From assembly GCA_905221615.1 (NCBI GenBank), contig CAJNDT010000946.1, forward strand, positions 562,865 through 626,864: 64,000 bases of DNA, read 5' to 3'. The position numbers and the translations under genes are program-made. Source of the stretch: Symbiodinium sp. CCMP2592. Taxonomy: Eukaryota > Sar > Dinophyceae > Suessiales > Symbiodiniaceae. Below the pieces are notes generated by a model. The model saw only the letters and a program-made list of their open reading frames with translations, did no database searches and had not been told where the DNA came from. This document shows positions 8,781-47,745 of this stretch, one piece after another (within the stretch, counting starts at the first letter, position 1; the number at the start of each line of letters is the position of its first letter).

Positions 8781-8800
8781 TGTGTGTGTGTGTGTGTGTG
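8781..8800. repeat. (TG)10 at left edge of large element
   Basis: Ten TG units immediately before the left terminal repeat. The right copy of the terminal repeat is followed at 36931-36961 by a TG-rich run, so both outer edges sit in TG microsatellite. Confidence 0.9.
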
Positions 8801-9092
8801 TCCACCCCTGTTTCGAAGGGTAGGCAAATCTGAGTCGAATGAGCAGGGGGACGGAGGGGGTGCAGGGGAGCTCCGTCCAACGAAGCTCTCCCCTACACCC
8901 TAGGAAAACGTACCTGCTTTGCCTGCGCCTGGGCCCCGTCGTGGGCAGCTAGCGAGGCACTCTTGCCAGTCAAAGTTCTAGTTGCTGCCATGTTGATGAG
9001 CCTGGAGACCCCATGCTAGTCATGTTTGAAGGTTCTGACTTCTCCTGACTTATGCTGACTTCACAGACCTGCGACACATTGTGTCAAGTGTG
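8801..9092 (+). repeat. left 292-bp terminal direct repeat
   Basis: Starts TCCACCCCTGTTTCGAAGGG and ends CATTGTGTCAAGTGTG. By eye identical to 36642-36933. Positions 8849-8900 can form two interleaved helices that co-vary with the relative at 47746 (see findings). GACAC-ATT-GTGTC, a short palindrome, lies just before the inner end. Confidence 0.95.
8849..8900 (+). other. conserved pseudoknot-type or switch structure in terminal repeat
   Basis: Helix a pairs GGACGGAG (8849-8856) with CTCCGTCC (8871-8878). Helix b pairs 8858-8870 with 8888-8900 (12 of 13 pairs). The arms interleave in the order a5', b5', a3', b3'. In the relative, the same geometry is kept with different sequence: 47794-47801 with 47816-47823, and 47806-47815 with 47833-47842. 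The 17-nt spacer between the b arms keeps CCAACGAAG in both. The right copy of this repeat carries the same structure at 36690-36741. Full simultaneous formation would be strained because only one base separates the a5' and b5' arms, so alternative hairpins are possible. Confidence 0.7.
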
Positions 9093-9134
9093 ATTCACAA
9101 CGGCATTCCCTATGGGCGCCGTGTCTCCCAGAGG

Positions 9135-9335
9135 TAGCTCTGGCGGCTGACTTTCCCGATTGATTCTATAAGCATCGGATGACTTTCTCTGACTTTATAT
9201 CCATGCTTGCAAGCTGACTTTCCCAGTGAATTCACCGACGTTTTCACCGAAACCTGAAAGCTGACTTCACCATTGACTTCTTTATTATGACAGTGACTTC
9301 ACCGAGCTGACTTTCCCACTGACTTGTCGCAGGTC
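9135..9335. repeat. left subterminal CTGACTT-type repeats
   Basis: GCTGACTTTCCC, GCTGACTTCACC and close variants recur about nine times, roughly every 20-30 bp, and end in GACTTGTCGCAGGTCTTCGG. The short relative has the same array at 48029-48225. Arrays of a short word just inside an element end are typical of recombinase-binding sites; that role is inferred. Confidence 0.7.
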
Positions 9336-9650
9336 TTCGGCTGGAAGCGAAGTAGGAAAGCTGTGCGTTTGATAGTTACTGAGTATCCTGCTTTGCGTGT
9401 AGCAAGTGATCAGCCTGGTCCTTCTGTAGTTCATCAAAACCGTCAGCAAGTTCTGCAGCAAGACGTGCCGCCAGCAATCACGCTTCATGCGGATGGCACA
9501 GGTTTTAAGTTGTCATTTCGATCAGTGGCCGATTTTGCTGAATATTCAGCAATCATGTCGGCAAACTTGACTCATGTTCGAGGTCATAGGGACGTCTGTG
9601 CTGGCCTGAACAACTTGCTTGACATACAGCAGACTGTTGCAGAGCTTGTG
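9336..9650 (+). other. between subterminal repeats and 51-bp array
   Basis: An open frame spans 9324-9695 on +, with a plausible stretch (AITLHADGTGFKLSFRSVADF). It runs into repeat DNA and has no recognised domain. It may be a degenerate exon of the element, or nothing. Confidence 0.25.
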
Positions 9651-11110
9651 TTTGTCCACCCCTGTTTCCAAGTTTCAAAGGGTAGGCAAATCTGAGTCGA
9701 ACGAGCAGGGGTCTGTACGGCTGGAGTGATTGGTTTAGTACATGTGTTTACTTGCTTGTGCGACTCGTAGACTGCAGTTTTCGCCACATGAGTGCGGTTT
9801 GCATATGTTGGAATGCGTAGACTCTGCAGTTTCGTGACATGAGTGCGGTTTGTATATGTTGGAATGCGTAGACTCTGCAGTTTCGTGACATGAGTGCGGC
9901 TCGCCAATGTTGGAATGCGTAGACTTCAGTTTCGTGTCATCAGTGCGGTATGCCTATATTGGAATGCGTTGACTCTGCAGTTTCGTGACACATGAGTGCG
10001 GTTCGCCGATGTTGGAATGCGTAGACTCTGCAGTTTCGTGACATGAGTGCAGTTCGCTGATGTTGGAATGCGTAGATTTTGCAGTTTCGTGACATGAGTG
10101 CGGTTCGCCGATGTTGGAATGCGTAGACTCTGCAGATTTGTGACATGAGTGTAGTTTGCCCATGTTGGAATGCGTAGACTCTCTGACATGAGTGTGGTTC
10201 GCCTATGTTGGAATGCGTGGACTCTGCAGTTTCGTAGACTTTCTGCTTTGAGACGCTGCTGTCAATAAGTCCGGAAGGGCGTGTGTGTGTCAACCGGTGT
10301 TTCGAACGGCTACAATGAGCCCGGCAGAGCTTGTGTGTGTCCACCCCGGTTTCAAAGTTTCAAAGGGTCGGCAAATCTGAGTCGAACGAGCAGGGGTCTG
10401 TACGGCTGGAGTGATTGGTTTAGTACATGTGTTTGCTTGCTTGTGCGACTCGTAGACTGCAGTTTTCGCGACATGAGTGCGGTTTGCATATGTTGGAATG
10501 CGTAGACTCTGCAGTTTTGTGACATGAGTGCGGTTTGTATATGTTGGAATGCGTAGACTCTGCAGTTTCGTGACATGAGTGCGGCTCGCCAATGTTGGAA
10601 TGCGTGTGCTTCAGTTTCGTGTCATCAGTGCGGTATGCCTATGTTGGAATGCGTAAACTCTGGAGTTTAGTGACACATGAGTGCGGTTCGCTGATGTTGG
10701 AATGCGTAGACTCTGCAGTTTCGTGACATGAGTGCGGTTCGCTGATGTTGGAATGCGTAGATTTTGCAGTTTCGTGACATGAGTGCGGTTCGCCGATGTT
10801 GGAATGCGTAGACTCTGCAGATTTGTGACATGAGTGCGGTTTGCCTATGTTGGAATGCGTAGACTCTCTGACATGAGTGTGGTTCGCCTATGTTGGAATG
10901 CGTAGACTCTGCAGTTTCGTAGACTTTCTGCTCTGAGACGCTGCTGTCAATAAGTCCGGAAGGGCGTGTGTATGTCAACCGGTGTTTCGTCAAAGGGTAG
11001 GCAAATCTGAGTCGAACGAGCAGGGATCTGTGCGGCTGGAGTAATTGGCTCAGTACATGTGTTTGCTTGCTTGTGCGACTCGTAGACTGCAGTTTCGCGA
11101 CATGACTGCG
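9651..11110. repeat. left 51-bp tandem repeats in higher-order units
   Basis: The unit GTAGACTCTGCAGTTTCGTG-ACATGAGTGCGG-(8 bp)-TGTTGGAATGC recurs every 51 bp, about nine times at 9770-10240 and again at 10455-10920. Each block is preceded by a copy of the first ~50 bp of the terminal repeat (9654-9709, 10339-10394, partial 10989-11028). Blocks end in GTAGACTTTCTGCT..GAGACGC and a piece of the element's right inner end (GTTTCGAACGGCT...GAGCCCG). The result is head-to-tail units of about 650-690 bp. Because 51 is divisible by three, long antisense frames stay open here; I do not regard them as genes. Confidence 0.9.
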
Positions 11111-11510
11111 GTTTGAGTACTGTGCAAGTGCAAGTTTGGCAAACGTTTTTCGTCTGTGGTGAATGCGTGCATGCCTACATGCGTTCGGAGTGCGCATCTC
11201 TCTGCTTTGCTGCATCGCAAGTGTTGTGCAAGTGCAAGAGTACGGCGTTTTGTCGTGTAGGAGTGAAGCTTCTGGAGCGAGCTGTGCCTCAGGGGTCGGA
11301 GGTTGAAGTTCTGTAGGTGCAAGTGACGTGCAAGTGACGTGCAAGGGACGTGCAAGTGATGTGCAAGGGAGGTGCAAGTGCCGTGCAAGTGACATGCAAC
11401 AGTACAAGGTCCTATGTGTTTGCGAGAAGTTGTGCTGTGCAGACGGAGGTTTGTGCAAGCAAGGGACATGCAAGTGATGTGCGAGAGAAGGGCAATGGAA
11501 GTTTCTGACC
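11111..11510. repeat. GTGCAAG-rich region
   Basis: GTGCAAGTGACGTGCAAGGG-type words recur from about 11310 to 11490. The segment 11238-11443 recurs, slightly shorter, at 34978-35174 in the same orientation. The stretch 11117-11235 matches 48425-48540 of the short relative, so this is element DNA and not host DNA. Confidence 0.8.
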
Positions 11511-11514
11511 CAAC

Positions 11515-11615
11515 GCCTCCGGTTACCCAGAATTGGGGTAACCAGTTTGGTAACCCAGAATTCAGGTCACCAGACCCCAAGAACCAAGATAGCAGGAACC
11601 AGTTCCAAGCCCATT
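11515..11615. repeat. GGTTACC/GGAACC motif cluster, left
   Basis: GGTTACCC, GGTAACC, GGTAACCC, GGTCACC and GGAACCAG recur within 100 bp. A cluster of the same type (GGAACC, GGTTACC) sits at 34358-34446 on the far side of the gene region. Confidence 0.6.
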
Positions 11616-12518
11616 CCTTGACCAGTGCGAAATATGGACTTTAAACATGTCCATGTAGTTTCCTTGTAAATCGTGTGTGTTTGCATACATTTCAAAGAGA
11701 TAACATGGCATGTGTTGACAATACTGGTGAGGTGGGTTTATTTTTTCGGAGAGTATATGTGGATTTTGTGTGTGTCTGGCTGTATTTATCTTATATTTCT
11801 TTGAATCTACATAGGTTTTTCGGGAGTTCATGTCTATTACATACATACATACATACATATGCACACACACATGCAATAATATATGCATGCATACATACAT
11901 ACCTACGTACATATACATACACACATATATAACGTACATGGATTGTTGGGCGGATGGAAGAACGATCGATGGATGGATTGGAATCTGAATAGGATGGATA
12001 CAGCTTTACTGATTAGGCCAGGTATGTAATTCGGTTTATGGTGCTTGCATGCCCCGGCGATTCAGTTTCGACACCAGCTTGTATGTAGGCAGTGGATGCT
12101 AGGAGGACACGACAGCACATGCGACATTCCTGTTGCAGCTGGGCTAGCTGTACATATAGTCGTCGTGCAGCCCTTGTGAAAGTCGTGCGTGATGTAGTAA
12201 TACGGTAGTGGATGTGGAGGTCTCGCCTGCACTCGATGCTAGAGCTACATCGAGTCGTAAAGGATGAAATGTGTGTCACGCATGTGCTCCGCCCGATGAC
12301 TCGAGCATGCTGCGAGCTCGTGTTCGGCAGCAGCTTCGCAAGAAAGAAGGCGGTACAGGTGCGCCCCCCCTTTGCATGTGGATTCGAGATCTGGTGGAGC
12401 AAGATCTAGAGGTGATTCACTTGTAGATGCCATTGCAGTGAATGTCTCGCAGGATTTTGCTGCATAGCATACAGCTAGCTGCACGTGCCTGCATTTTGCA
12501 GTGCACACGTTTCACGAA
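11616..12518. other. left edge of gene region, no assigned exon
   Basis: Contains an ATACATAC microsatellite at about 11840-11935. 12212-12409 is open on + with a possibly real stretch (FGSSFARKKAVQVRPPF), which may be an upstream exon or leader of gene A. I cannot join it in phase. Confidence 0.35.
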
Positions 12519-15500
12519 ATGGCTGCCCAACCCGGGGCGGAAGAAGCTGGGGCTGCCTGCCCCGATGATGAGGTAGCTGCAGCTGTAGATGAAGAGCTAC
12601 TCGATCGATATGGTGTTCGCGGTGTTTTTTGGGTGCAATACGCTCATTCGTTTCCTAGTGCACACGAGAAATATTTAGGCATTGCACTCCCAGGTCGCAG
12701 ACTCTTCGTGACATCTTGGCTGAGTGGCTGAATGGAAAAGATGACGACGGAAAACATTCGATACTTTCCAGGATGCGCAAGGATGAGGACTCTCAAGTGT
12801 GTGTATGCACATGTACACATGCATATATGTACATGTGTCTTATAATATTTAGCAGTACATAGCAGCCTGCCTTTCAAAACCATGTGGCAGGACCACAGTT
12901 GCTTGAAGCTGGTGGAGTATGTTTCCGAGCAGGCGGTGCATGATGCAGCGGGTGTATTGAAAGAGCTGTACGCAAATTTCGGTGTAAAGCAGCCGGTGCT
13001 CTCGAAGTACAGAGTTACTTGCTTGCAGTGTTTGTGCAGTGCTGCCCGGCTTTTTATAATGCATGTACACACATGTACGACATTTCTGCGACGCACACAT
13101 GCTTTCATGAGGCTGCCTTCCAATGGATCCAGGATGAGTATGCTGTCCTGCCTGTGACATCCTTGAAAAAGGAGATCCAGGCAGGTTCGCCAATCTTGGT
13201 GTTTAGAGTGTATCATATGTCCTGGGTTTCGATCTGACCAGGCCTGGACAGAGGTCCAAGCTGCTACATTGAGAAGCAGGGCTATGTATGGAATCAGACT
13301 TTGGAGAAAGACTCCAGAAAGATCACTGTATTCTGGCCATCTAAACACGTACATGCACTATATAATCAATGGTCGAATATGCATGCATTTGTATGCAGCT
13401 GTGCATAAGGTCCAAAGAGGTGCAGCTGTTGAAAGATGTCCTGACAATTTTGGCTGCAGATGTGGAGGGGGCCGATGATGATGCATCTTCGGATTCAGGC
13501 GCCGAGGATTCGGCGGGTGAGGAGTCTGCCCCCGGCAGTGATGTGGCTGCTGATCCAGCAGCATCCCAGGAGTCGGAAATGGATACATGTGACACACAGA
13601 TTTCTGAGGATGTGCTTTCGACTTCGCAGGAACCACCTGTGAACAAGAAAGTTTTGCCCCCGGTGCCAAAGTTTATTGGCATTTTGCCCCACCGCTGCAC
13701 AACCCTTCCGAAGCCAGAGGCACCGGCAGAAAACCCCTGCCCAACAGACTTGGCCCGAAAGCTTGAGATTGCACCGACCTCCAAGGCCCCGGTTTCTGTG
13801 AACCCAGAAGCCTCTGCAGAGTGTCTGGATCCGATTCCTCAGAAGTCCGAGACCGCCAAGATTCCGGAGAAGTCCGAAAGCCCCGTGATTCCCGAGAAGT
13901 CCGAGAGCCCCGTGATTCCCGAGAAGTCCGAGAGCCCCGTGATTCATGAGAAGTCCGAGAGCCCCGTGATTCATGAGAAGTCCGAGAGCCCCGTGATTCA
14001 CGTGTCCGAGCTACATGCAAACCCCGTGCCCGTAGACGTGCCCAAACCGGATTCCGAAGCTTGGCGGTATTATGTGTAGGGATACTGCAGTTTTCGTGAC
14101 CCATGCAATATTTGTCATGTACAGTGTAATAAACGTAGTAGCGTAGACTTTCGAGGTGCAGCCACCAGATCATGAGAAGCCAACCCGGACCGCTGAGGCC
14201 CACCGTTTTAAAGGAAGAAGTGTACATGTGTAGTCACGTATAGTGTGTACCATGCGACCGCATTGAGGCAGCAAACGAGCCGCTGATTGGAATGCGACCC
14301 CAGCTCAATGTGGCTGACAAGGTTCGTGAGTTGCAGGCCAAGGGGTATCTCCGGGACGACAACAGGGAAGCCTATGCAGACTTGCCAGAAGTGCAAAGCA
14401 AACTGTGACTCAGCCTCAACTGAAAATAGTTGTAATCAGCAATCATGATGAGGCACCCGTGCGCTAAGGACATTAATTATATATGTGTGTTATATATATA
14501 TTAAGCATGTATACATGCATCCATTAAGTCATTCGTTCTTTCGCTCTCATAGTATATACATATATACACATGATTCACTCTTTCACTCGTTCACTCCTTC
14601 ATCATCATGAGATTGTTACCTAGTACAAATATGCATGCATGTTTCATCGAACTAGTCATGATCGATCCAGCACTTTTCCTGCTGAGGCGAGCTGCTGCAA
14701 AAGCCAAGGCCACCGCAGAGCAGGGCAAGGGCAAGGGCCGAGGACGGGGTGGGAGAGGCCGAGGCGGCCGAGGAAGGGGTGGGAAGTCGACGATCCTGGA
14801 CTGCAATGTGCACGTGTGTGTTTCAGCATGTTGCATGTGTGAATATGAGATGGAGTTTCGATGAGGACAGATGCACCAGTTGTGGAGGATCCTGGTGAAG
14901 TGCCTGCTCAGGTTGAGCCGGGATGTGCCCCTGCCGAGAATCCCAGCAACAAGCGTCCACATGAGCCGGAGGAGGCAGACGGTGAGGATCAGAGCAAACG
15001 GAGAAGGGTTCGTGGCAAGAAGAGGACTGCCACCGAGGAGCCTAGTGGTTCAACAGGACCTCCAACAGCAAAGGCGAAAGCAACACCGAAAGCAAAAGGA
15101 AAGGCAAAGGCGAAAGCGAAGCCAGCACCGGCCGAAGCAACGCCAGCGCCGACCGAAGCAACTCATGCACCGACCGAGGCAGCTGATGCACCGACCGAAG
15201 CAGCTGATGCACCGACCGAAGCAACTGATGCACCGACCGAAGATGCACCGGTCAGCAAGCGGTTCAAAAAGGCTGATTTCGGCACTATCAGAATTCCGCT
15301 TTTCAAGGAATACTATGCGACTGGACAGCATGTAGTGGCACATGTTAACGTTCATGATTACTCCGGTGATGTGTATAATTAGCAAGCTATATAATCGTGC
15401 GCAAGGTGATGCCGTACTGGAGCCGAGCTTGCGTGGGTCTCTGTATGCGGAGTGATGGCGCACAGACGAAGAAGCAGGCTGGAGCATATGGCGTCAGGGT

Positions 15501-18500
15501 TCCAAGGTTACATGCTTAAGATTTAAAGTTTCTGTGGATAAGCACATGTACATATATGGCATATACATATACATGTGTGAGTGTGCATGGATATTATTTA
15601 TGGTGTGTAATTCTGTCTAGAGCACACGTACATGCATGTGCATATACATGCACACACACACACACACATGACATACATATACAAGTGTTTCCAGGGTTAT
15701 ACCCGTCTAGCTATCTGAGACCTGAGAATATGTGCCGATGATCGCGACAAATCCCCAACGGCCACCAACACTAAACCGGATGGGATCCGAAAGTCACAAA
15801 ATCCTGCATCGCTATAGCCTAACTATCGTATAAAGGCGAGTTATCGAGATGTATCCTGGTGACAACCTAGCTGATTGCAGTACCTATAGAGGGCTACTGT
15901 CGAGTCGATCGGCAGGTCCTGCACATTGCTGCCCCAAGCAACATGAAGATGGAGACGTGTGGTCTCGCAATGCAGAACATGGTGGACATCTGTGGCACAG
16001 CCGTGGCTGGGGCTTATAGATGATAAACTCTTGATACCCACTCAAATTATTGCATGCTAGAACATTGTATACCTCGATGTCTTGCATCGATTACGACTCT
16101 CCGGCTTGCCAGCTTGCGATAAAGCTTCCAACTTGCTCAAGCCCTAGATCCCTGAAACCCTAGTGCCTAGTACCACATGATTTAACCCTAAGCCGTAAAC
16201 CCTAGAAACCCAAAACCCCAAAACCCGAAAACCTTATTGAACCTAAAACCCTAAAATCCTCAACCCCAGGCACCCTGATTTCCTCAGCCCGAAAACCCCA
16301 TAAAACCCTAAACCCTAAAACCCTATGGGACTTCGACGTTTGAAGCTTTCAGGGTCCGAGGGTTATGTAATGGGTCGAATGGTCCCCCTGCATGTCAAAT
16401 CCTAGGCCAAGCGCTTGGAGGACGGCATGCCCTTCGCAGAAGTCAAGGCCAAGTTCGATCGAGCCAAGCGGGGAGAGTGATAGGTGCATCTAGGTTCAAG
16501 TTTTTATGTCTCAGCCAGCCAGAATGTGCGAGGCTGATTGTGACCCGAAGCATTAACAAATTACCTATGCTATACAGCTGTACGAATACACATATGTGGC
16601 TAGTGTGTTGCTTTCTGGGGTTCCTTTGAGGCTTATGTACAAATAACTGCTAGATTTGCCGGGTCCTTGTCAGCATGTGCTGAGCTGGGTGTGTAGCTAA
16701 ACACACCAGCATGCACTGCAGTGTTCCAATCAGGATGGGGTAGAACTTCGTGTGCTCGAGGGAAGGGAAAACACGCAAGTGCACAAGCTTGCAAGTGTGC
16801 TGCTAGGCATGCATGCATGCTACATGTACAGATGCACTTATCTCTGCATTCTTGGTGTGTGCTCATGTTGTAGGGCTTGCAAAGCCTCCTTGCCGTGTGC
16901 CCCTGGGTGCTGTTGTGTAGCCATGGTGCTCTCGCTTTCTCGAATGGAAGTCATAACCCTGTTGTCCTTGGGAGCTCCTGGTGTTTTGTTGCTCGGCTGG
17001 ATCTAAAATTTCTATTCAATTATAATTCTACATGAAGACGGGAATATAGCTGCTTGGCCCAGGATCCATGCTCTGGACTTTATCGTGCAGACCAGCGCCC
17101 CTCACTTCGACCAGGATCCTCGAGCCTGCCAGAAGTATTATTTAATTAATAAATAATTCACGGTGTATCGTCGTCGCTAGCAGCACTATAGTCGCATGGT
17201 ACTAGTGGCAGTGTAGCACTGTACTAGCCCTAGTATGCTACGTGTACAAAATACAATATGGTCTTGTAGGATGGGCTTTCTGCTTTGGGGGGGCTCTATA
17301 AGATCGGTTTTGGAGTACATGCAGAATGAACTATAGAGTACCTGTAGGGTGCCGGTTTCAGGCTTCGTTTGAGCGGGCATTGCTGGGCTGGGGTATATTA
17401 CACGAAAGTCAACACCGAAGAATTGTGCGAGTGCCGCCGGTCTCGCAATTAACTTAGGAGCTTGATGCCTTGGACCTGTTCTGTGGCTGGGGAGGCATTC
17501 ACCGTGCTTTTCGTATTTCGACTGCACCTATACATGCAGAATAATGCAGCACGAGTGTGCCATTAACAGTCAAGGTCGCAGAGGCTTCAGATCCTCGAGA
17601 TATGATAAAGAGCGAATCAACCCCGATCATGATGTGGAGACAACGATGCTTGCCTAATTCTAGTGGCATGATTCGGTATGATCTGATATATTGCAACTAT
17701 CCTGCATCGACTAAGGATTGGGTTTCTCTGCATGCTACAGAGTGTCATGAGGATGCGATGTGGCGGGTTGATTTCAGCGGCACCACCATGCGGCGCTCAT
17801 GTTTTCATGTGCTCTTCGAAGACCAAGAAATCTAAGTGGAACCCCCGTGGAGACCTCAACTCGGAAACCTGTGTCCGGGGTAACTGTACAGCTACGAGGA
17901 CCATTTTGGGTGTACTGCTGGGAATAGCGCGTGGGGTATACTTTATCCTAGAACAACCTTCATCTTCGGTGTTGGTGCACCTGCCGGCGATGATCCACTT
18001 ATTTGTGAACATGCACCGCCTCCAATTGGGGCAGCACGGAGCTGTCCGTTTGTGGCTCGCCTCAACATCGATGTGGCATTAATTGTACTTGAGTGCATGT
18101 ACATGTTATTGTGTCTTCAGTTGGATGGGCCTCTTCGGTGCAAAGTCGGTGAAAAGAACTGTGGTGGTGGGAAATGCGTCGCCTAACTGCATGTAGATAC
18201 AAACTATGTTTAAATTCACTGCACATGCATTCTGTGGGCTGCAAACATGATCATTGAACAGATTAGCTCAGGCCCTGGATCAGCCGTTTCTCATGGGCTG
18301 CCCGAATACAGCCAGGTGATCGCAACAAGCACCGTTGGACTTCCGAAGGTGTGTACAAGAAGGGTGTGAGCAAGAAAACAGGCAAAAGGACCACGCAACT
18401 CAGCCGCTCAATCACCATGTGCACAGTGACTGCAACGCTGTAAAGTATGAGCCCCGATCATGCAGCCATCAAATGCCCCACTTCTGATCAGGACCGGTGG

Positions 18501-18842
18501 TTCCAAGCTGCAGAACACCCAGGCCTACCCGTACAACTTCTGTCGATTTGTGGCTTGCGAGCACGGAAAGCTTCTTCGGGTAGCTAGATTGCAATACATG
18601 AATGATCGCAGTTATGAGAGGTCGCTTGTGCAACAATTGTTTCCCCCCCCAGTGGTATTCATGACGAGCAATCGGAAAACCCCAGAACCCGTAAACCCAG
18701 CAGCCCTCAACCAAACCCAACCCCAGGCCCTGAGACCCTGAACTTTTATAGCTTCCAACTCCCATATAATGATCTCAGGAGAGCACCACACCATCACGGC
18801 CACACGCTGACCTGGCGAACGAGTTCGTGCCGGAGCTGACCC
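12519..18842 (+). CDS. gene A: multi-exon methyltransferase-like protein
   Basis: Proposed exons: 12519-~12731 (MAAQPGAEEAGAACPDDE), 12891-13013, 13112-13180, 13426-14058, 14268-14404, 14687-14785, 14866-15331, 15406-15506, ~15881/15892-16018, ~16406-16478, ~17063-17131, 17458-17512, 17575-17647, 17716-18072, 18121-~18177, 18316-18418, 18492-18579, 18779-18842. Many joins keep phase; several donors read GC. The N-terminal half is acidic with an EKSESPVI repeat, an RGG/GRG tract, a KRPHEP..KRRRVRGKKR basic patch and KAKAK/APTEA repeats, which suggests a nuclear protein. The C-terminal half has LDLFCGWGGIHRAF (motif I-like), GGLISAAPPCG (motif IV-like), YFILEQPSSS, WMGLFGAKSVK, then KLQNTQAYPYNF. 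I recognise this order from an uncharacterised dinoflagellate family resembling C5 or other class I methyltransferases. Activity is unproven. The gene may continue to 21765. Confidence 0.72.
13830..14010 (+). repeat. coding repeat in gene A (EKSESPVI)
   Basis: A 24-bp unit (GAGAAGTCCGAGAGCCCCGT plus four bases) is repeated about six times, giving EKSESPVI in gene A. The first units differ slightly and the last are nearly identical, which indicates recent local expansion. It is likely a flexible, phosphorylatable linker. Confidence 0.85.
15060..15265 (+). repeat. coding repeats in gene A (KAK and APTEA)
   Basis: A Lys/Ala tract (KAKATPKAKGKAKAKAK) is followed by 5-6 copies of a 24-bp unit that encodes EA(T/A)xAPT. 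The bases GCACCGACCGAAGC recur almost unchanged. The tail of gene B (about 27890-27930) has a similar Lys/Ala tract. Confidence 0.85.
16141..16326. repeat. degenerate CCCTAAA-type tract in intron
   Basis: Many AACCCTAAA and AAACCCCAAAACCC words with errors, inside a gene A intron. Telomere-type seeds therefore also occur within transcribed introns of the element. Confidence 0.6.
17458..18579 (+). other. methyltransferase-like core domain of gene A
   Basis: Joining 17458-17512, 17575-17647 and 17716-18072 in phase gives ALDLFCGWGGIHRAF, then RRGFRSSRYDKERI (an acidic residue after the next strand, as in SAM-binding motif II), then about 25 residues to GGLISAAPPCGAHVF. Next come NPRGDLNSETCVRGN, an Ile/Leu-rich helix, GVYFILEQPSSS, and (from 18121) WMGLFGAKSVKRTVVVGN. 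C5 methyltransferases have a Pro-Cys in motif IV and ENV in motif VI; here the counterparts would be PPC and EQP. Regions 18316-18418 and 18492-18579 (YKKGVSKKTGKR, NTQAYPYNF) are family-specific and presumably C-terminal to the catalytic fold. Confidence 0.7.
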
Positions 18843-19793
18843 AGGCCGGGCGTCGGAGACCGAAGGGATGGGGTTTAGGCCTGTCTTTGGAGTGTGGTGT
18901 TCGTAGCTCGCGATCGTACATACAATTACATCTACTTAATCACCGGGGGCACAAGAAGTACTTAGAACTGCAGACATCGGGATTGATTTTGCAGTCGTGT
19001 CTCAATGCCCGGACCCCAAATTATCAGCATACTCGTGCTAGCGCTAGCTGCTATCTATATACCATGCATGCAGCTAGCTGCTTATATTCAAGCAAACATC
19101 CTGTTCTACGTGAATACAGAATTTTCTTGCAGTGGGAACTATTTGTTCAATAGAGTTTAGGTTTCAGGAGTTTTTGCATATATTACGGATTATGATATAT
19201 AGTATTTTAAAAAATCGAGAAATGTTATATATATACATAGCATATATAGGGCGAATTGGGGTTTAGGGCTAAAACCTCGATTCCACTACTGTATACAGTA
19301 TATCTATATATAATATTGGGGCTCTGATGTTTAAAAAAAAAATAGCTTCAACAGTTTCATCTCTCCAGGTCTCGATTCCCGAACTCAGACAGTCGACGAC
19401 CCTGAACCATAAACCCTACAACCTTAAACTATATTGCAATCATATTTTAAAGTATATACATTGCCACCCATAGATCTATATATAGGACGTGGGCTTGTTG
19501 TTTCATTGGGTGCTTCGGGCAGGGCTTTATTCTTCACTGGTTTCGGGCTGAGGATCATCCTCGAATGAGTCTGAAGCTACAGCAACCTGTGCACCGAAAT
19601 CTCCAGGATGAGAAACTGCTGTGGCAGGATGCTATGCTTGAGCCTCACTTGCAATTAATTGTACATGTGGTGCAGGAGACAATGAAGCTTAAGTGGCAAT
19701 GCAAGGAGCCGGTTGTCGAATTCTTGCGAGATGCTCAACGCTCCGGGGCATGGGTTATGCAGTACACGAAAGTGCCGCTGACTACCGATCGAG

Positions 19794-21765: not shown

Positions 21766-22339
21766 ACCCTTAACCCCCTAAGCTCTAACCCCAAAAATCC
21801 TCACGATGTCTATTGGACTTTAAACCCTAAAGCCCCTACTTAAGACCTAACCGGAAAATCAACATGATATCCTGTCCCTCGGGAATCATAGCCTATAAAT
21901 AATATACAAGCCATCAATCTCAATCCTACACTGGACCCCAAACCCTGCTGCACCCCGAATCGAAAACCTGAACCGAAACCCTAAATCCCAATGCTGTCCT
22001 TTTCCTGCATATCAATAGGGACTGATCTAGAAAACCACAAACCCTAAATCCTAGACAACCCTAAACCCTGGCGCCCCCCACACTGTGCTTCGTCATTGAG
22101 GCAGTTCCACAGCCTGGGTTGTAAATTGTGTAGTGGATGCTTATTTACAAACTCTTCTTGGTTTCCCCATGTATGTGGCCATATGGTTTGCCTAATATAT
22201 AGAGCCGAAAGCACGACAAACCCTCACGAATTCCTATGTTTACACGTGTGAAAGAATTGTAGTATGCATGTATGTATATGCATATAGGTCATATATACAT
22301 ATACATATACATGTGTATCTATGTTGTTTAAATTAATAA

Positions 22340-22503
22340 ATACGTACATATATATATATATATATATAATATTTATAATATATATATATATATATGTATA
22401 TATGTATTGTCACATATATATATATATATATATATATATACTATGCTGTGTCTGTATACTCTCTCTAAATATATGTGTATATGTATATGTATATATATAT
22501 ACA

Positions 22504-22544
<41 letters not shown>

Positions 22545-22560
22545 CATAGTATATAATATA
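22340..22560. repeat. (TA)n-rich microsatellite cluster
   Basis: Several (TA)n runs of 20-40 bp separated by short GTATATGT-type spacers. Open frames here are composition artefacts. Confidence 0.9.
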
Positions 22561-23035: not shown

Positions 23036-23065
23036 GCCCTCCCTAGCGTACAATTGCTGTCCAGG

Positions 23066-27930
<4,865 letters not shown>

Positions 27931-28526
27931 ATAGGCGTAGTTTTCCAATGGGATCTGGATGCGTGTGCACTGGTTTGTCAGTGCGCAGGGCTTGCATCTA
28001 GACTGTTTTGATGTGGGCTGTCGGGATGATCCTGACACCGGGGGCTCTGCTCATAGAGTATCAGGGCGCCTTTTGGGTTTTGGGACACATGTGATCGGAA
28101 AGCCCGGGAAACAAACCTCCTAGGTAAACCTACAGCTTCTAAGTCCATGCTGCATAGGACGAGGAACCCGGGGCCATCCAATCGAGCACTCAGGGAAACC
28201 TGCTACGGGCATGGAACGAAGCAGCGCTGCCTCGTCGAAAAAAGGCACCGCTTCGATTCGGTGAACCTGCTGGGAGCGGCCAACCACTAGGATACCAGCG
28301 TGTGTGGAGGTGTGAAGTCGGTAACCCTATCCCAGGCCTTAAATTAATTTACCCCTATAAACCCTAAACCCTTTAACCCTTAAATCACAAATCCTACGCA
28401 GGTCCCGCTGCAAACACCCCTTCCCAGTCTTGCCCGGCCACTCGAAGGTGTGTGGAGGTATGACGTCGGTAACCCAAGTATTAACCCTAAAGCCCTTGAC
28501 CCCTAAACCCCAAATCCTACGCAGAT
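27931..28526. other. spacer between genes B and C
   Basis: No confident exon. GGTGTGTGGAGGT-GAAGTCGGTAACCC occurs near 28297 and again (ACGTCGG) near 28448, each followed by CCCTAAA-like DNA and a 'CTACGCAG(G/A)TCCCGCTG' stretch (28394, 28515). This suggests a local duplication of an exon start. Confidence 0.45.
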
Positions 28527-31500
28527 CCCGCTGATGACGCTGCCGATGGATCTACACGGAGATCAAAACGTAACCCAGCTGCAATTCTGCAACCCTGCAG
28601 GATCGAATTTCGAATCTATGCAATGTCGCACATCCCAGTCTTGCCCTAGTACCCGGTATCATTTGATCGAAGCTACAGATATATCTCAGGATCGGAGACC
28701 CCAGCTGGAGCACACAGCCGATCACGATCGGCCAAGCCGCGACCTGCGCGACCTGTGCCTCAACATACATACTTCCGATCCCGATCCTAGGCTTTAATCT
28801 GATGAGTCCACATGCACGTTTCAATGTTACTACGTGTGAAGTATATCGCACCAATACACTCAACCCAGGTTCCAAGAGGTCACGATCTCCTGACGACCCA
28901 CATCGACCTCCTTCTAGACCTCTAGAGAGATCACGATCTCGGTCCGACCCACGAGAACCTGCCTCCACAGGCCAGCTGTACAACTATAATGGGTTGTCCC
29001 CTATAATAACCTGTGAACCAACATCGGCCAGGCCTGGGTGGGAAAAGATCACGATCTCCAGCAGGCCTGCTGCAGATCATATATTCCAAACAACATGTAG
29101 GGTGTGGAATGAGTGCTTGTGCAGTGTTTGTGATCCAATTTCGCAGTGTGGTGGCCGCTACAAGATCAGGGTTTGGGTGCTTGGCATCGGGTTTACGTTA
29201 AGTTTATGGGCTCAGGGTTATACAGACAAGAAATATCATGCATGATCCTCCAGCACTGTTTAGAGAGCTTCTTTACGATGCTGGTTATATAGCACATATA
29301 GCTATGTGCTGTCGACCACTGCAGGCAAGCGTGCGATGGAGAGCAAGATGCCACTGGCTGCTCATGTGTGTCTTGGCTTAGAAATAATATCGGCAAACTC
29401 GGTATGGGCTCTAATACTTAATATTGCAAGGCTCAGACAAGTCGGTGAAGGACACGATTCAGTTTGGAAAGCAGTGAAAACTGCCCAAGCCGCCGCACAG
29501 GAGATTTGCCTTTAGATCTAGATCTAGATCCAGTATATAACCCTCCAGGCCTCAAAGATTAAAACCATATTGTGCGCACTGGACAGTACTGAACCCGACA
29601 GCCCTTCAATATCCCACTAGCTCCAAATCTCAAAGCCACTATCCCCGCCCTTCGTTGGAAGGAGGCGGGCCAGAAGAACATGCATGCTGCCACACAGAAG
29701 CTGGCCTCGATGGCGACGAGGGGCAATGCAGCCCGGGATCTTTTTAGATTCGTGAGACTGCCCATCGATGCTTAGCTCATCCAGCTTTGAAGATATTGAG
29801 GTTTTCTTATGGGGGGATTTTTTGTGAATAGACCGGTATGTATATACAAACCTATGGTAGCTATCTAAATATCGAATTTAATATGTCGACTATCTCGTAC
29901 TTGCCCGAGGCCCTGAGCTACGTGCCCACGCAAGTGTTGGATCACGAATCTGAAGTAGCGGGCAAACTTATGGATGTGTCATTGCCAATGTTCGACCCGC
30001 ACGAGCTGCTGGAGTGGTTGTTCGCGAACGAAAGGGTTTACATTGACGACGAAACCATCCGGTGACTTTGAGCAACTAGCTATAATGTATATCAAGATGT
30101 AAATGTATGGATGAAACTTCATGTCTGAGTCTTCCCTACACCTCACGATTCAGGTCCTATTGGCAGCACTTCAGAAAGCTGGATGTGCAGTGGGCCCACA
30201 GGCATCCGGCTTCCGACGACCATATTCCGATTTCTGTTTCTTGGAGCATTTAAAAAGTAGGAGGCCTCGAGTGCATTCTGATCAAAGAGCATTGGTGCTG
30301 ACAAGGTAGAACCGGTCGTTTTCCTGCTAGATCTAAATACAGTAATTATCAAATCACTATATACCCAGAGACTCCAATATTGTGGGATCCTAGTACATAT
30401 ATTTAAAATACATATAGTATATATATAATAATAAATGATGATATCATCGAGTATTGGAGTCTCTGGGTGTATAGCTAGCTACCGCTTATAGCCTAGGATG
30501 TACTTGCAAATCTACAGCTACCTAGCTGCACCTCCGATGGATCTTGCAATACCCGGAAACACATCCCACCGAAAACCCAATACGCTGCACCCCAACAGCC
30601 CCACCATACGAGCGATCGCAAAAAACTGCTGCACGGAAGTCAAAGCCTCGCAGGAAAACCCGAAAGAAAGCTTTAAGGCCCAACTCCATAAAACATAATA
30701 CCTGGCCGCACAACATATAACCCGGAACCCTAATCCTAAACCACCACATGAGGTGTACGGGGACGCTGCTCAGTTCACCCGCGAGGGCGACAAGTTCACA
30801 GCACTGCTGCTGACACTCCCACTGTTTCGGATCAAAGGCCGATCGAGTGCAAATTATTGTTTTTAAATAGGGGTTTAAGGGTCTAGGGTTTAGGGACTTA
30901 GGGTTTAGGGGTCTAGGGGTCCAGGGGCTATAATTAGCTAAGGGTTATATATATAGGGTTTAGGGATTAGGGGTATACCGGCTTTACTGGTTTTTCCACA
31001 CGTTGACACTAGGAGAGCCTTGGCGCAAAACCTACATGTTTTTCGTGGTCAATTCGTACAAGAGTGCCGGCGCCGCATCTCGGATGTAAGGTCACCTTTT
31101 TGTTTGGTCGTTGTCGAGCGAGGTGATACTCGACCTATATAGACAATCAAGCTCGTATAGGTCACGATGAGACCGATCCTACACCGCACATGCTGGTCTT
31201 TACAACATGCTTTTGCTGGGCGGCGACCACAAGCGCACCCACACGATCCCTGCCTGCAGATCCCACGCCTACACCAGAAGCTGAAGCCACAGCTGTCTCG
31301 CAGATATGCTGTGGCGGAATACAAAGGCGACTGGGAGTGGCACCAGCGCCTTTGGCAGATGCGCACGCATTGGAATGCAAAGCAGATTTGCCACGCTTGC
31401 CGTGCGACCCGAAACTCCAAGGGCAATGATGGGCAATGCTGCTTCACCCTCTTCGGATCAAACTTCCCTCGTCGCAGTTTCGAAGAGTGCTTGCTGGAGT

Positions 31501-32589
31501 CGATGCCAGACTGTCCGTGCCCGCTGGTGTTGTGCGAAGGGTTCCACCCTGCCATAATACGCTTCTGTGCGATGCACGTGCTTGCATTAGGGATCTATCA
31601 GACCCTAACTGCGGAGGCATTATTGTGGCTTTGCGAGCAGCGGATCTTTGCCCCATCTGCAACAGACCTGGACGAGCGACTCCGGGCAGCGTTCATGCAT
31701 TTCAAAGGCTGGCTTCGATCCAACAAGCTGTCCTGCAGCGGACGAGAGTTCTCCTCGAAACGCCTGCATGTCAGCAAGATTGACTACCCTTTCCTGGGAT
31801 ACAAGGCGTTCAACACTCGAATCGTGCTTGCCTGGTGTGCTGACACTAGCATCGCATTTAGCAGTTGTTTTCGAAAGGGTGTTTGTATGTTATGGAGCCA
31901 CGTGCTGGAGCCACGTGCACCATTAAGGCTGTACTCTGTGACTCAGAAACTCAGCAGAAGATCTGCCAGCGTTTGGATGGAGAATCAGAGAATGACTTTC
32001 AGGCTCGGTGTGATTTGAATACGATCATCACGGGTTGTGTGATACTTGCCCGCACTTGGCAAGAAGTGCTGGTTATACATCATGGTCCCAGGATCACTGT
32101 CGATCCCGCCCACTCCCGGCTCTTTCGGGCTCCTATATCCTGCTAAGGTTCGAAATGAGCGAATTCCAGAATGATCTGGAGTGCACGGACCGCTACTTGA
32201 CTGGCAGCGAAGGTGAGCAGCTCTACAGCGAAGGCATTCGGCACATCAAACATGCAAGCGGGTTTTTTATTACAATACGAACAGCAGCTTGTCTCCCTGC
32301 AGGTCAGCGAGCGCTCCGTCTCTACAGAGAAGCAGCCTTGATATTTTCTGGGAAAGGTGAGCTTCGGTTCCTGCTGAGGCCGAAGTTGCATGCAATGGAC
32401 GAACTTTTGAAAGGATGCCGAGAAGAACTCTATAACCCCAGGTTTTTTCAGAATTATGCGGAGGAAGATGTCCTTGGCTTGTTGAAACCATTGGCACAGA
32501 AATCGATCCTGGCTCGACACTTCGAAGTGACGATGCTGAAACGATACTTCTTGAGGTGGGATCTGGGCAGAACTGATTTCATGATCTGA
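28527..32589 (+). CDS. gene C: RS-rich start plus large conserved 'YGDAAQF...YKGDW' module
   Basis: Early candidate exons encode basic RS-type stretches: ~28527-28575 (DPADDAADGSTRRSKR), ~28690-28765 (HSRSRSAKPRPARP), ~28867-28970 (SKRSRSPDDPHRPPSRPLER), ~29044-29080 (KRSRSPAG), then ~29322-29515. From 29621 the joins keep phase: 29621-29769, 29910-30061 (PMFDPHELLEWLFANERVY), 30154-30235 (SYWQHFRKLDVQWAHRHPAS), 30753-30846 (VYGDAAQFTREGDKF), 31013-31055, then ~31170-31860 (AEYKGDWEWHQRLW, ICHACRA, GFHPAIIRFCAMHVLALGI). Later exons run from ~31908 to 32589 (RPKLHAMDEL, YNPRFFQNYAEEDVLGLLK) and end at a stop at 32587-32589. I recognise the module from very abundant, uncharacterised dinoflagellate proteins. 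Spaced acidic residues plus a CxxC insert recall RNase H-like transposases, but this is inference and key residues are unproven. Confidence 0.7.
30357..30473. mobile_element. MITE-like hairpin in gene C intron
   Basis: TATACCCAGAGACTCCAATA on the left pairs with TATTGGAGTCTCTGGGTGTA on the right, around an AT-rich centre. It sits in the large intron between the exon ending 30235 and the one starting 30753. Confidence 0.75.
30868..30965. repeat. TTTAGGG-type tract in gene C intron
   Basis: Degenerate GGGTTTAGGG and GGGTCTAGGG units just after the exon ending 30846. Confidence 0.65.
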
Positions 32590-33949
32590 TAACACAGTCC
32601 TTCGGGATACCTCCCTTAATTTGTGCCCTGCAGGCTTCTTTCCGATCAGCCTGGAGATGTCGAACGAAGCATCCGGCGATAAAGTCGCCTCTCGCTGCCT
32701 GTGGAATGGCCACACTGTTGCCATGGAGAGCACACACAGGACTCTCTGAAATGCGAAGTCGATTTGAACCGACATGCTGTTTTTTGACCAGTCGGTCGTT
32801 TTGAGCCTGTTATAATCGGGGTTCTAAGGGGTTTAGGGTTGAACCCTTAAAATATAATGTCCCCCCTTGTGCCGATGAGGAAATGGATGGTCCTTGGACG
32901 GCACATGCGACTTTACTTGGTGTCCCTTGCACTGCATATATTATGTGCCTTCTTTTTAAGGTCCTGGGTAGATACAGGGTATTATTTAATTTCTTTGATC
33001 CGAATATGGCCTCCCATTCAGGCTCAGAGCTGCCCGAAGAGCTCTGCGTCAAAAAAAGACCCGCCGATCGACGCTTCTGATCTAGGCTAAACCCTGCACC
33101 CTGCAGGTCCCTAAAATCCCATCGATTCAGAGCCCGTAACTCAAAGACAAACCCGAACCACCAAACCCTCAAGACGCCGAAACCGGCAAGCAGCCTCGAG
33201 CCCCGAACCCAAGAAATCGAACCTACCGTTCAGGGAATTCGGTATATGTAGCTAGCTAGTCATATTGGGCGTTCGTACGAAGCTTGCAACCGTCCGGTAC
33301 GGTTTTGTGTTTTCTAGATTGATTTATATATCTGGTCCATTAGGGTTCTGCTTGGAGGATAAAGGGCTTCGTGGCAGGAATTCGAATCCGGTGTGCAACT
33401 CCTATAGACCCTGCTATCCTATATAATTAGCCGTAGGACCTAATCCCGATATGCAATCTTGGGTTTGGGATTGAAGGGTTATATGCTGAAAGCACAACCT
33501 TCGACACAACTGTTACATATCGCCCATAAAGCCCTAAACCCATGCAGCCTAAACCGTCCTACATGAAACCCTAGCGAGATCCCGCCAAATTGGCTCACTG
33601 CACTCGTATTATATAATAACCAATATCCGAACTTCGAAACCCCTATTGGATCCTGACTCCTGACCTGTGATCAATCCGAAAAATCAGAAGCATCCCCGAA
33701 GCCCTAATAACTCTCTCCAAAGGCCACCCTATGCTAGCTGACTCCTATAACACTCGAACCTTGAAGCTGCTATGGGCCCGGAAAGATTTGCATGATGCGT
33801 ACATTTGCTGATGTCGTGACGATGACGATGACCCTAACATGGTGATGTTGTTGGGAAGATCTAGAATTCGAAGGAGAAGAATGATGATGCGATGACGAGG
33901 ATGAGTGTGACACATGTGGCATAGGCTGGATTGTTGATGATCTCGGCAC
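32590..33949. other. region after gene C; possible extra exon
   Basis: 32630-32748 is open in two sense frames (one gives FPISLEMSNEASGDKVASRC), so it may be a 3' exon of gene C. 33100-33700 shows no pattern beyond scattered CCCTAAA-like words. Confidence 0.3.
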
Positions 33950-34057
33950 GAAGATGACGACCAGCTGGTGATGTCGTGGGAGGACACAGATGATGATGAG
34001 GATGATGTTGATGCGATGGCATGTGAAAGCCTGTACTGCGAGTTATGCATGCATGCT
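33950..34057 (+). CDS. possible acidic exon near the right side
   Basis: Reads EDDQLVMSWEDTDDDEDDV, then DAMACESLYCELC, on +. The acidic run resembles the end of the candidate exon at 21673-21765. No start, stop or splice partner was established. GATGAC-type simple repeats around it (33815-34020) make a chance origin possible. Confidence 0.3.
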
Positions 34058-34357
34058 GCATAATAGTTGTTATACCCCAAAACTTGCACGGGACTGTAGT
34101 TCGAGAGCACGATTGTGCGGGTTACCCACACCCCCTCCCAATTTTAACCGCGCGCGCATGCGGGACTGTACCTGAGAGCACGATTCCGGACGAAACTACG
34201 TGTTTCACCCATTTTTTTTGTGCCAAACTGGCCGGAGAGCGGTTCTGCAAGGCAGATTTGTACTCTTTCTCGGGACTTCTGTGCTTTGGAGTGTCCGGTG
34301 GGATGCAATTTCACGTAACAATCATCTCTTTTGCTTCGTTTTTTGAGCCTCCTGAAC

Positions 34358-34446
34358 ACCCCTTGGTTCCAAGCCAGCCTTTGGAACCAAGACTTTTGGG
34401 AACCAGATCTGGGGACCACGCAAACTAGGAACCAGGCTCTGGTTAC
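34358..34446. repeat. GGAACC/GGTTACC motif cluster, right
   Basis: TTGGTTCCAAG, TTTGGAACCAAG, GGGAACCAG, GGAACCAGG and GGTTACC within 90 bp. It mirrors the left cluster at 11515-11615 at the border between the gene region and the repeat modules. Confidence 0.6.
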
Positions 34447-34479
34447 CTACCTCATGGGGCCTTAGGATGCCCTGGGTGA

Positions 34480-35180
34480 AGCAGTAGGGTTGTGCGAGAG
34501 ATACGCAAGCGCCCAGCAAGTGACGTGCAAGGGATGTGCAAGAGTTATGCAAGTGACATGCTTTGACGCATTCAAGAATTCCCATGGGAGGCGTCGAAGG
34601 TGACCATTCATGCAGTTACATTCGTGATGTTGCCCGAGCCAAAGCAGCCACCGTCGTGAACCGGACGCCGCGATCGGCAAGAGCAGTGCAACTGAGTGCG
34701 TGTCGTCGTGCACAAGGGATGTGCAAGTGCAGTGCAAGTGATCTGTAAGGTATGTGCAGGCAGTCAATGAGTGATGTGCGAGTGTTGTGTGTTCATGCTT
34801 TTGCTTGTGTCAGAAGCGAAGTCGAGAGTTTCTCTCATCCGCAAGTACACTTGGCCAACGTGTTAGGCTGAAATTGCTGTTCACAACTTTGTGCGGTGGT
34901 TAGCAAATCTTGGATACCCATGTCATTTGTGCGAAGCTTTGATGAAACCGTAAAAGTGCTTCAGTGTGACGTAGACAAGAGCACGGCGTTTTGTCGTGTA
35001 GGAGTGAAGCTTGTGGAGCGAGCTGTGTTTTAGGGGTCGGAGGCTGAAGTTCTGTAGGTGCAAGTGACGTGCAAGGGACGTGCAAGTGATGTGCAAGGGA
35101 GGTGCAAGTGCCGTGCAAGTGACATGCAACAGTACAAGGTCCTATGTGTTTGTGAGAGGTTGTGCTGTGCAGAGTCAATT
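34480..35180. repeat. right GTGCAAG-rich region with copy of left segment
   Basis: GTGCAAGTGA-type words recur at 34515-34765 and 35055-35130. Segment 34978-35174 is a close copy of 11238-11443 in the same orientation, one 11-bp unit shorter. Confidence 0.8.
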
Positions 35181-36130
35181 GTTGCGGGTTTGCCTATGTT
35201 GCAATGCGTAGACTCTCTGACATGAGTGTGGTTCGCCTATGTTGGAATGCGTAGACTCTGCAGTTTCGTAGACTTTCTACTTTGAGACGCTGCTGTCAAT
35301 AAGTCCCCTGTTTCAAAGAGTAGGCAAATCTGAGTCGAACGAGCAAGGGTCTGCACGGCTGGAGTGCCTGGTTCAGTCCATGTGTTTGCTTGCTTGTGCG
35401 ACTCGTTGACTGCAGTTTCGCGACATGAGTGCGGTTTGCATATGTTGGAATGCGTAGACTCTGCAGTTTCGTGATATGAGTGCGGTTTGCATATGTTGGA
35501 ATGCGTAGACTCTGCAGTTTCGTGACATGAGTGCGGCTCGCCAATGTTGGAATGTAGTTTCTGCAGTTTCGTGACATGAGTGCGGTTTGCCGATGTTGGA
35601 ATGCGTAGACTCTGCAGACTGGTGACACGAGTGCGGGTTTGCCTATGTTGCCATGTGTAGACTCTCTGACATGAGTGTGGTTCGCCTATGTTGGAATGCG
35701 TAGACTCTGCAGTTTCGTAGACTTTCTGCTTTGAGACGCTGTTGTCAATAAGTCCGGAAGGGCAAGAGTCTTATAAACAGCTTGCAGGGTTTGTGTGTGT
35801 CCACCCCTGTTTCAAAAGGTAGGCAAATCTGAGTCGAACGAGCAGGGGTCTGCACGGCTGGAGTGATCGGTTCAGTCCATGTGTTTGCTTGCTTTTGCGA
35901 CTTGTAGACTGCAGTTTCGCGACATGAGTGCGGTTTGCATATGTTGGAATGTGTAGACTCTGCAGCTTCGTGACATGAGTGCGGTTTGCATATGTTGGAA
36001 TGCGTAGACTCTGCAGTTTCGTGACATGAGTGCAGCTCGCCAATGTTGGAATGCGTATACTTCAGTTTCGTGTCATCAGTGCTGTTCGCCTATGTTGGAA
36101 TGCGTAGACTCTGCAGTTTCGTGACACATG
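35181..36130. repeat. right 51-bp tandem repeats in higher-order units
   Basis: The same 51-bp unit as at 9770-10920, in fewer copies (35190-35275, 35415-35715, 35920-36125). Again each block follows a copy of the first part of the terminal repeat (35309-35347, 35799-35848). Confidence 0.9.
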
Positions 36131-36641
36131 CTGGAAATGATTGCTGAGAGTATTCCTGCAATCATTGCTATTTGCCACGTTCTGAAAGCGATTTGCTGAG
36201 ATCCTGACAACCACATTGCTATTTGCCACGTTCTGAAAGCGATTTGCAGACTCAAACAGACCAGTAGCCTGTTGTCAAATTCAGGTCATGTCGGAGTCCA
36301 GCTTTGAGTTTGCAGCTCTGTAGGTGCAAGTGACGTGCAAGCGACGTGCAAGGGACGTGCAAGTGATGTGCAAGGGAGGTGCAAGTGCCGTGTAAGTGTG
36401 CAAGGGATGTGCAGTTTGCAGCAGGGTTCGGCCATGGCTGGTGGTGGCACTGTGGTTTCTGGTGGTCTGGTGGCGATCTGGACAAGTGAGTGCGCATTGT
36501 CATGCAAGTGTCGTGCAAGTGATTGCATTGTCATGCATGGGTTATGTACGTGAGCGTTTCCTGTCAGTAAGTTCGAAAGTGCATGTGTATGTTGACCGGT
36601 GTTTCGAACGGCTGCAACGAGCCCGAGAGGGCTTGTGTGTG
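36131..36641. repeat. right subterminal region of large element
   Basis: Includes two copies of a GCTATTTGCCACGTTCTG-AAAGCGATTTGC segment (about 36165 and 36215), a GTGCAAG array at 36325-36415, and a final 160 bp (GTGATTGCATTGTCATGCAT ... CGGTGTTTCGAACGG ... GGGCTTGTGTGTG). That last part nearly matches 48666-48792, next to the right repeat of the short relative. Confidence 0.8.
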
Positions 36642-36933
36642 TCCACCCCTGTTTCGAAGGGTAGGCAAATCTGAGTCGAATGAGCAGGGGGACGGAGGGG
36701 GTGCAGGGGAGCTCCGTCCAACGAAGCTCTCCCCTACACCCTAGGAAAACGTACCTGCTTTGCCTGCGCCTGGGCCCCGTCGTGGGCAGCTAGCGAGGCA
36801 CTCTTGCCAGTCAAAGTTCTAGTTGCTGCCATGTTGATGAGCCTGGAGACCCCATGCTAGTCATGTTTGAAGGTTCTGACTTCTCCTGACTTATGCTGAC
36901 TTCACAGACCTGCGACACATTGTGTCAAGTGTG
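36642..36933 (+). repeat. right 292-bp terminal direct repeat
   Basis: By eye identical to 8801-9092 across all 292 bp. Followed by TG-rich microsatellite (36931-36961) and then unrelated DNA (CTCGGAAACTACCG). Confidence 0.95.
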
Positions 36934-47730: not shown

Positions 47731-47745
47731 ATGTGTGTGTGTGGG

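Follow-up and report, generated by a model that had tools for sequence, protein, structure and literature searches.

The window analysed here, a stretch of 64,000 nucleotides from contig CAJNDT010000946.1 (C946) of the dinoflagellate Symbiodinium sp. CCMP2592, contains a pair of identical direct repeats, 28 kb apart at their outer edges, that enclose a region with three genes, designated A, B and C. This arrangement is most probably a nested pair of mobile elements (probability about 0.85): an outer retroelement related to Penelope-like elements (PLEs) is cut by an inner DNA transposon of 22,968 bp with terminal inverted repeats (TIRs). According to this model, an outer element of approximately 5.17 kb with terminal direct repeats would have inserted in or beside a TG microsatellite, and the inner transposon would have cut into it at a TGA sequence, bringing genes A to C. 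The nested pair replaces the proposal, made from the letters of the window alone, of a single 28-kb element belonging to an undescribed class of giant eukaryotic DNA elements.

The nested structure was recognized by comparison with other copies of the outer element in the 1.10-Gb assembly (5,383 contigs). A search with the 292-bp repeat yielded 277 first-look candidates, the best 40 of which were scored. Among these 40 matches, 24 form 12 same-strand pairs with a spacing of 1.8-5.6 kb (counted by eye), and 16 cover the whole query: five pairs (10 matches, 4.5-5.6 kb apart), the window's own two repeats and four without a near partner. Self-comparison delimited five whole outer elements of 5,165 bp (L009), 4,813 bp (L010), 4,984 bp (L011), 5,883 bp (L012) and 5,600 bp (L013), the terminal repeats of which are 97.8-100% alike within an element. 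Window positions 8781-11508 are 99.2-99.6% identical to L009, L012, L022 and L023, and positions 8790-11508 are 99.4% identical to L011; in all five the match stops at 11508, as do partial matches in L010 and L024. Six copies (L009, L011, L012, L022, L023 and L024) read GTTTCTGAAGCAGTAGGG, in which window base 11508 is followed by base 34480 and TGA occurs once. The anchor string was not found in L010, L013 and L021, so that the comparison of junctions covers the other six copies. The filled site in the window consists of GTTTCTGA, then 22,968 bp, then TGAAGCAGTAGGG. Since the six copies run directly from 11508 to 34480, genes A to C lie in a nested insert at 11509-34476. Insertion of the gene region duplicated 3 bp, and the host element alone measures approximately 5.17 kb. 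An 11-bp repeat, TGTGCGAGAGA, was also considered as the target duplication of the insert but was rejected because, as the empty site shows, its two copies are both part of the outer element, separated by about 35 bp.

The sequence-only reading had set its own test, namely whether pairs of the 292-bp repeat elsewhere enclose such genes. By this test the single-element reading fails: the full repeat occurs in five other pairs at the short spacing given above, and six copies are without the gene region. A single 28-kb element carrying all the genes would account for identical repeats within TG runs and for the frames of genes B and C on the plus strand between them, but exactly this stretch is missing from six copies, the five whole elements measure only 4.8-5.9 kb and the inner part has independent copies with target-site duplications of their own, so that this explanation is hardly tenable. 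Equally improbable is the capture of the genes by the outer element and their movement with it as cargo. The location of the genes between the repeats of the outer element would suit such a capture; however, a block that matches the insert in length and ends is found on contig C4323 in unrelated flanks, and the 5' end occurs at five more of the places listed.

These copies identify the insert itself as a mobile DNA element. Its 5' end is matched from base 1 at 99% on C4323 and at 81-86% on C1, C86, C4308, C933 and at a second place on C946; C4308 and C933 may be a single locus assembled twice, given their same flank. A genome search with the 3' end (397 bp) yielded three matches: the window itself, C4323 (100%) and C1 (81% over the last 128 bases). 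In the C4323 copy, which was characterised from its two ends and gene C, a distance of 23,052 bp separates the ends, which are 99.0-99.8% alike; they enclose gene C at 99%, and TAG is present on both sides; its flanks are unlike those of the window apart from TG-type simple repeats. The C1 relative is 6,757 bp long, carries 12-bp inverted ends (CCCAGGGCCTCC at both ends) and is flanked by TTA. No match below E 0.05 was obtained in it with 16 relatives of genes B and C, all of which match the window. Thus, at the three loci where both edges were read, a 3-bp target duplication was found in each case (TGA, TAG and TTA). A duplication of fixed length and inverted ends such as those on C1 are features of TIR DNA transposons, and the insert in the window has clusters of the motifs GGTWACC and GGAACCA just within each end. 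Weighing against this assignment, the insert in the window has only imperfect inverted ends, with an alignment score of 32 compared with a mean of 24 and a maximum of 38 in 200 shuffles. A 20-bp tandem repeat, CCGTGAAATTCGGGCTGGAA, at 22938-23031 has a counterpart mid-way in the 6.8-kb relative (L064).

Gene C travels with the insert family and is the leading candidate for its transposase. Besides the C4323 copy, two other copies of the 5' end, on C946 and C86, have relatives of the gene at 70% identity on their own strand, 22.8 kb and 27.8 kb further in, respectively. The gene has at least 152 matches in the genome (the best 150 of 643 candidates were scored), and its one named database relative comes from Symbiodinium. 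About 30 relatives of near-equal score, at approximately 30-31% identity and distributed over many contigs, all have open frames of 359 amino acids; their equal length and similar scores point to recent amplification of one branch, which would be expected if the gene belongs to a transposon. The putative transposase function is weakened by the lack of a Pfam match, by uninformative PDB sequences and by a structure model (pLDDT 47) too poor for a structure search. Gene B was called methyltransferase-like by eye, and no methyltransferase match was found for it in Pfam; gene A was covered by the Pfam frame scan alone. One relative of gene B and two of gene C are listed with the same longest contig of 185,581 bp, which suggests that the two genes are linked elsewhere. 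No relatives were found in the viral and prokaryotic collections. The sequence-only reading had attributed the size of these gene families to a mobile element. Genes A to C do lie on one, and it helps to explain gene family C, but this element is separate from the repeat element set in TG runs.

The description of the outer repeats held up and could be extended. The 292-bp repeats (8801-9092 and 36642-36933) have zero differences and their identity reaches 8 bases further left, giving 300 identical positions of 300; their outer edges lie in TG runs, and the repeat modules reported at both ends of the gene region are real (Table 1). A count of TG edges was made from 20 script rows, three of which were removed by eye as not representing repeat ends; some edges of L021-L024 are not in the list. 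Among the 17 edges of outer-element copies, a TG run of at least 10 was present at 9/9 left edges and one of at least 14 at 5/8 right edges, relative to a background in which 30 of 3,198 40-mers of the window contain a TG run of at least 8. The right edges of L009, L011 and L013, with only 6-8 nt of TG, speak against a TG target, since the end of the element itself supplies TGTG. No target-site duplication of the outer element was seen in the fetched copies, where a TG run would hide one.

The window contains another element of this family, 1.28 kb long and also between TG runs, with 237-bp terminal repeats (47738-47974 and 48785-49021) that are 99.2% identical. It resembles the outer element in the 5' internal end (83%) and in the 3' internal end and repeat head (93%), but differs in the middle of the repeat. 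The terminal repeats are thus similar within an element and dissimilar between the two, as if they were renewed at each transposition. Six TG runs of at least five units were found by script in the window, four of them at, or no more than 13 bases from, the four outer edges of the two elements. The word CTGACTT is concentrated in the element regions, where 18 of its 20 occurrences in the window are found (nine in 8960-9345, three in 36800-36935 and six in 47870-48235), and the only two occurrences of TTGTCGCAG, at 9324 and 48208, lie in the internal regions of the two elements. Both words might act as splice acceptor signals resembling branch points.

What kind of element the outer one is was approached through its domains, its ends and its larger relatives. 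In six frames of 9001-36002, with stops read as X, Pfam revealed no retroelement or transposase family, in agreement with the earlier failure to see a reverse transcriptase (RT); below threshold there were six weak matches in one plus frame and one in one minus frame. For lack of such a domain the outer element is taken as non-autonomous. Pfam showed neither an integrase nor an aspartic protease in 9001-36002, and the same holds for six scanned open reading frames (ORFs) of C402. The ends are not those of a long terminal repeat (LTR) retrotransposon: they read TG...TG and, as already noted from the letters, not TG...CA, and no primer-binding site, polypurine tract or target-site duplication of 4-6 bp was seen by eye. 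The direct repeats of the pseudo-LTR type, with a partial tandem structure, are a feature of PLEs.

Larger elements with coding capacity on C402 and C199 carry in both terminal repeats the pairing motif described below, and encode related proteins (tblastn E 1e-46, 24% identity). The terminal repeats of the C402 element are 459 bp long and 99.1% alike. In these proteins an N-terminal pattern, YC...YVGS...R...E...LN, is conserved, which we take to be GIY-YIG-like although no profile matched it, and C-terminal motifs, GAPMGSHFSP or GTCIGNQISP together with RYVDN, presumably belong to an RT-like part, which neither Pfam nor PDB supports. The C199 element encodes the two parts in separate open frames. 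The protein is named from these motifs only, since no library recognised it. An endonuclease-first order is that of the Chlamys/Naiad PLEs. A 369-amino-acid ORF of the C402 element (L035:3503-4609, minus strand) is 2OG-Fe(II) oxygenase-like by eye and has no Pfam match.

A further terminal-repeat family, L014-L019 (on C364, C5012, C4401, C2480, C2413 and C4568), has ends unlike those of the window's family but has in common with the window's repeat a 120-125-bp block that begins at 8843 and includes the motif; identity in this block is 89% for one of the 12 repeats and 93.6-99.2% for the other 11. As judged from these alignments, the shared block with differing ends is a modular exchange between families. 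The ends of L014, L015 and L017-L019 resemble those of C402, which makes them likely non-autonomous partners of the C402 element. Elements of the C402/C199 kind, with their GIY-YIG-like and RT-like protein, would be the likely kind of source of the machinery for the window's outer element, which would move via RNA. As a driver of the window's family the coding elements are inferred only, because the repeat ends of both coding families checked differ from those of the window's family. Further points against this account are that the C402 element does not lie within a TG run, that neither Pfam nor the PDB sequences provided a noteworthy match to the C402/C199 protein, and that a structure model of the RT-like part (pLDDT 34.5) was unusable.

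The outer element might instead be an ordinary non-autonomous LTR retrotransposon resembling terminal-repeat retrotransposons in miniature (TRIMs). Terminal repeats that are alike within and not between elements, and small copies such as that at 47738-49021, are consistent with a TRIM-like origin; it is nevertheless unlikely in view of the TG...TG ends, the failure to see a primer-binding site, a polypurine tract or a target-site duplication, and the N-terminal GIY-YIG-like and RT-like parts encoded by elements that share the motif. The outer element is thus best read as a non-autonomous relative of PLEs without recognised proteins, and not as a member of an undescribed class.

Each terminal repeat contains a motif of two interleaved helices, P1 and P2, with the layout GCAGGGG - P1 - P2 - P1' - AACGAAG - P2' - ACGTACCTGC. 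The letters of the stems vary and the pairing is kept. In an alignment of 16 rows, both sides changed in 19 of 27 pairs, and 53 cells with double changes were counted versus 13.0 (standard deviation 3.1) after shuffling and 10-23 after sliding; none of 500 shuffles reached any of five measures. Three of the 16 rows (L026:4723, L033:8324 and L033:6988) were misaligned by MAFFT; they were kept in the covariation analysis and left out of the second count of base pairs, in which the remaining 13 rows showed Watson-Crick pairs in 254 of 286 cells. The genome contains 481 exact matches to the signature CAACGAAG N12-40 AAACGTACCTGC and none to the reversed pattern; 63 of the 100 places listed fall into same-strand groups 0.6-11.1 kb apart (counted by eye). 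Among 18 further matches, chosen by hand mostly for differing P2' letters, 13 form their own P1 with 8/8 pairs and 10 form P2 with at least 9/10, at a near-fixed spacing, as opposed to 1.3% of 306 cross pairings that reach the threshold for P1 and 1.3% for P2.

Not all observations favour a pseudoknot. At this spacing a perfect P1 is missed by five of the 18 (L044, L045, L052, L053 and L054), although in L052 one is obtained if the inner stretch is shortened. Moreover, P1 and a full 14-bp P2 could hardly form together because their strands abut without a linker; the helices may therefore be alternatives and not one rigid pseudoknot. A hammerhead, which is common but not universal in PLE repeats, was not found by Rfam in the window or in L014, L026, L028, L031, L033 and L034.

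The motif might also act as DNA, for example as a site for a recombinase or endonuclease, as its position near the ends of the elements and the predominance of Watson-Crick pairs would allow. This is rather improbable, since on the ORF strand G-T cells outnumber A-C cells by 16 to 8 (13 rows) and the unpaired joint and end are conserved. The same count, together with the location of the ORFs on the strand of the motif, led us to drop the idea that a C-A mismatch identifies the RNA as the minus strand. As an RNA the motif may have a part in cleaving, circularising or recognising the RNA of the element, and its putative function is possibly that of a ribozyme. Rfam gave no match to it above threshold; the scans showed matches of the microRNA type in low-complexity sequence and a few other weak matches; a mir-1207 match exactly on the L028 motif (24.6 bits versus a gathering score of 90, E 2) was taken as chance. 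In the portions available of the literature, including PMC11453091, PMC5029490, PMC6431247, PMC11167929 and PMC12477816, no description of the motif was found by searches that did not use its sequence. On the basis of Rfam and these searches the structured motif is apparently undescribed. A more far-reaching proposal, which we regard as tentative and with the odds against it, is that it is a functional RNA of a new class, perhaps a ribozyme that cleaves itself, and would replace the hammerhead in the PLEs of this lineage and set RNA cutting, circularising or priming for insertion into TG microsatellites.

The inner element resembles large TIR DNA transposons (EnSpm/CACTA or PIF/Harbinger), which generate 3-bp duplications, in its inverted ends, 3-bp target-site duplication, subterminal motif clusters, multi-gene content and short relative without genes B and C. 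It differs in that the insert ends begin with CCCAGGG or CCCAACG and gene C has no Pfam transposase match. The outer element shares with PLEs of the Chlamys/Naiad type the partial-tandem pseudo-LTRs and larger relatives with a GIY-YIG-like and RT-like protein, and is distinguished by a motif that is not a hammerhead, a protein not recognised by Pfam, insertion into TG runs and window copies without recognised proteins.

According to the available portions of the reports cited here, ribozymes in the repeats are known in PLEs (PMC11167929, PMC6431247), retrozymes are non-autonomous and carry hammerhead ribozymes in their LTRs (PMC9695139) and terminons are giant telomeric PLEs of rotifers (PMC6431247). 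The outer element is similar to retrozymes in being non-autonomous and in having a conserved RNA-type fold in each terminal repeat, but the fold is another one, known from sequence alone, no primer-binding site or polypurine tract was seen and there are internal tandem arrays. Like terminons it is a PLE-type element in simple repeats with tandem arrays, whereas its giant size stems from a nested DNA transposon and its setting is a TG microsatellite, not a telomere. If the motif cleaves or primes, the mobility of PLEs need not depend on hammerhead ribozymes. According to a paper of 2025 (PMC12477816), PLEs were unreported in the TSAR supergroup before the Ectocarpus elements that it describes, and an alveolate PLE would extend this record if the RT-like protein is confirmed. 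The 23-kb multi-gene DNA transposon with its empty site, second copy and short relative provides a concrete reason for the large size of some gene families of the dinoflagellate type, at least one of which sits in a transposon.

Table 1. Coordinates in the window of the nested elements, the pairing motif, the genes of the insert and the second element
Feature	Position	Strand	Evidence or remark
TG run, left outer edge	8781..8800	.	
Left terminal direct repeat (pseudo-LTR)	8793..9092	+	300/300 identity with 36634-36933
Motif, left repeat of outer element: 8-bp P1, up to 14-bp P2, AACGAAG joint, ACGTACCTGC end	8843..8917	+	
5' internal region common to outer and 1.28-kb elements; CTGACTT clusters	9093..9382	+	9064-9382 versus 47946-48266, 83%
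Head-to-tail units, repeat head three times, 51-bp tandem repeats in two	9639..11115	+	
TGA, left target-site duplication of insert	11506..11508	.	Empty-site comparison
Nested DNA transposon-like insert with gene region	11509..34476 (22,968 bp)	+	Absent from six copies; second copy on C4323
Left end of insert, CCCAACGCCTCC, GGTWACC / GGAACCA motif cluster	11509..11637	+	Matched from its first base at six other loci
Open frame of gene B, by eye resembling a methyltransferase (PPC, EQP)	17687..18079	+	3 database relatives, 73-92%
Gene C upstream exon	30750..30842	+	81% identical to a stretch of P0008, 31 residues
Gene C core exon, candidate transposase	31299..31865	+	11 database relatives; at least 152 genome matches
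Gene C downstream open frame	32014..32589	+	2 relatives, 68-69%
Right end of insert, GGATGCCCTGGG	34348..34476	+	
TGA, right target-site duplication of insert	34477..34479	.	Empty-site comparison
Right-hand unit array matching the left one, repeat head twice	35183..36130	+	
3' internal end common to outer and 1.28-kb elements	36437..36633	+	36437-36691 versus 48588-48842, 93%
Right terminal direct repeat (pseudo-LTR)	36634..36933	+	300/300 identity; five more full-length pairs in genome
Motif, right repeat of outer element	36684..36758	+	
TG-rich run, right outer edge	36934..36960 (run within 36929-36960)	.	
Second element of the same family, 1.28 kb	47738..49021	+	
Motif, left repeat of 1.28-kb element	47788..47863	+	Other stem sequences, same pairing
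Motif, right repeat of 1.28-kb element	48835..48910	+	

Many degenerate telomere-like stretches of the type CCCTAAA / TTTAGGG are scattered across the whole window.

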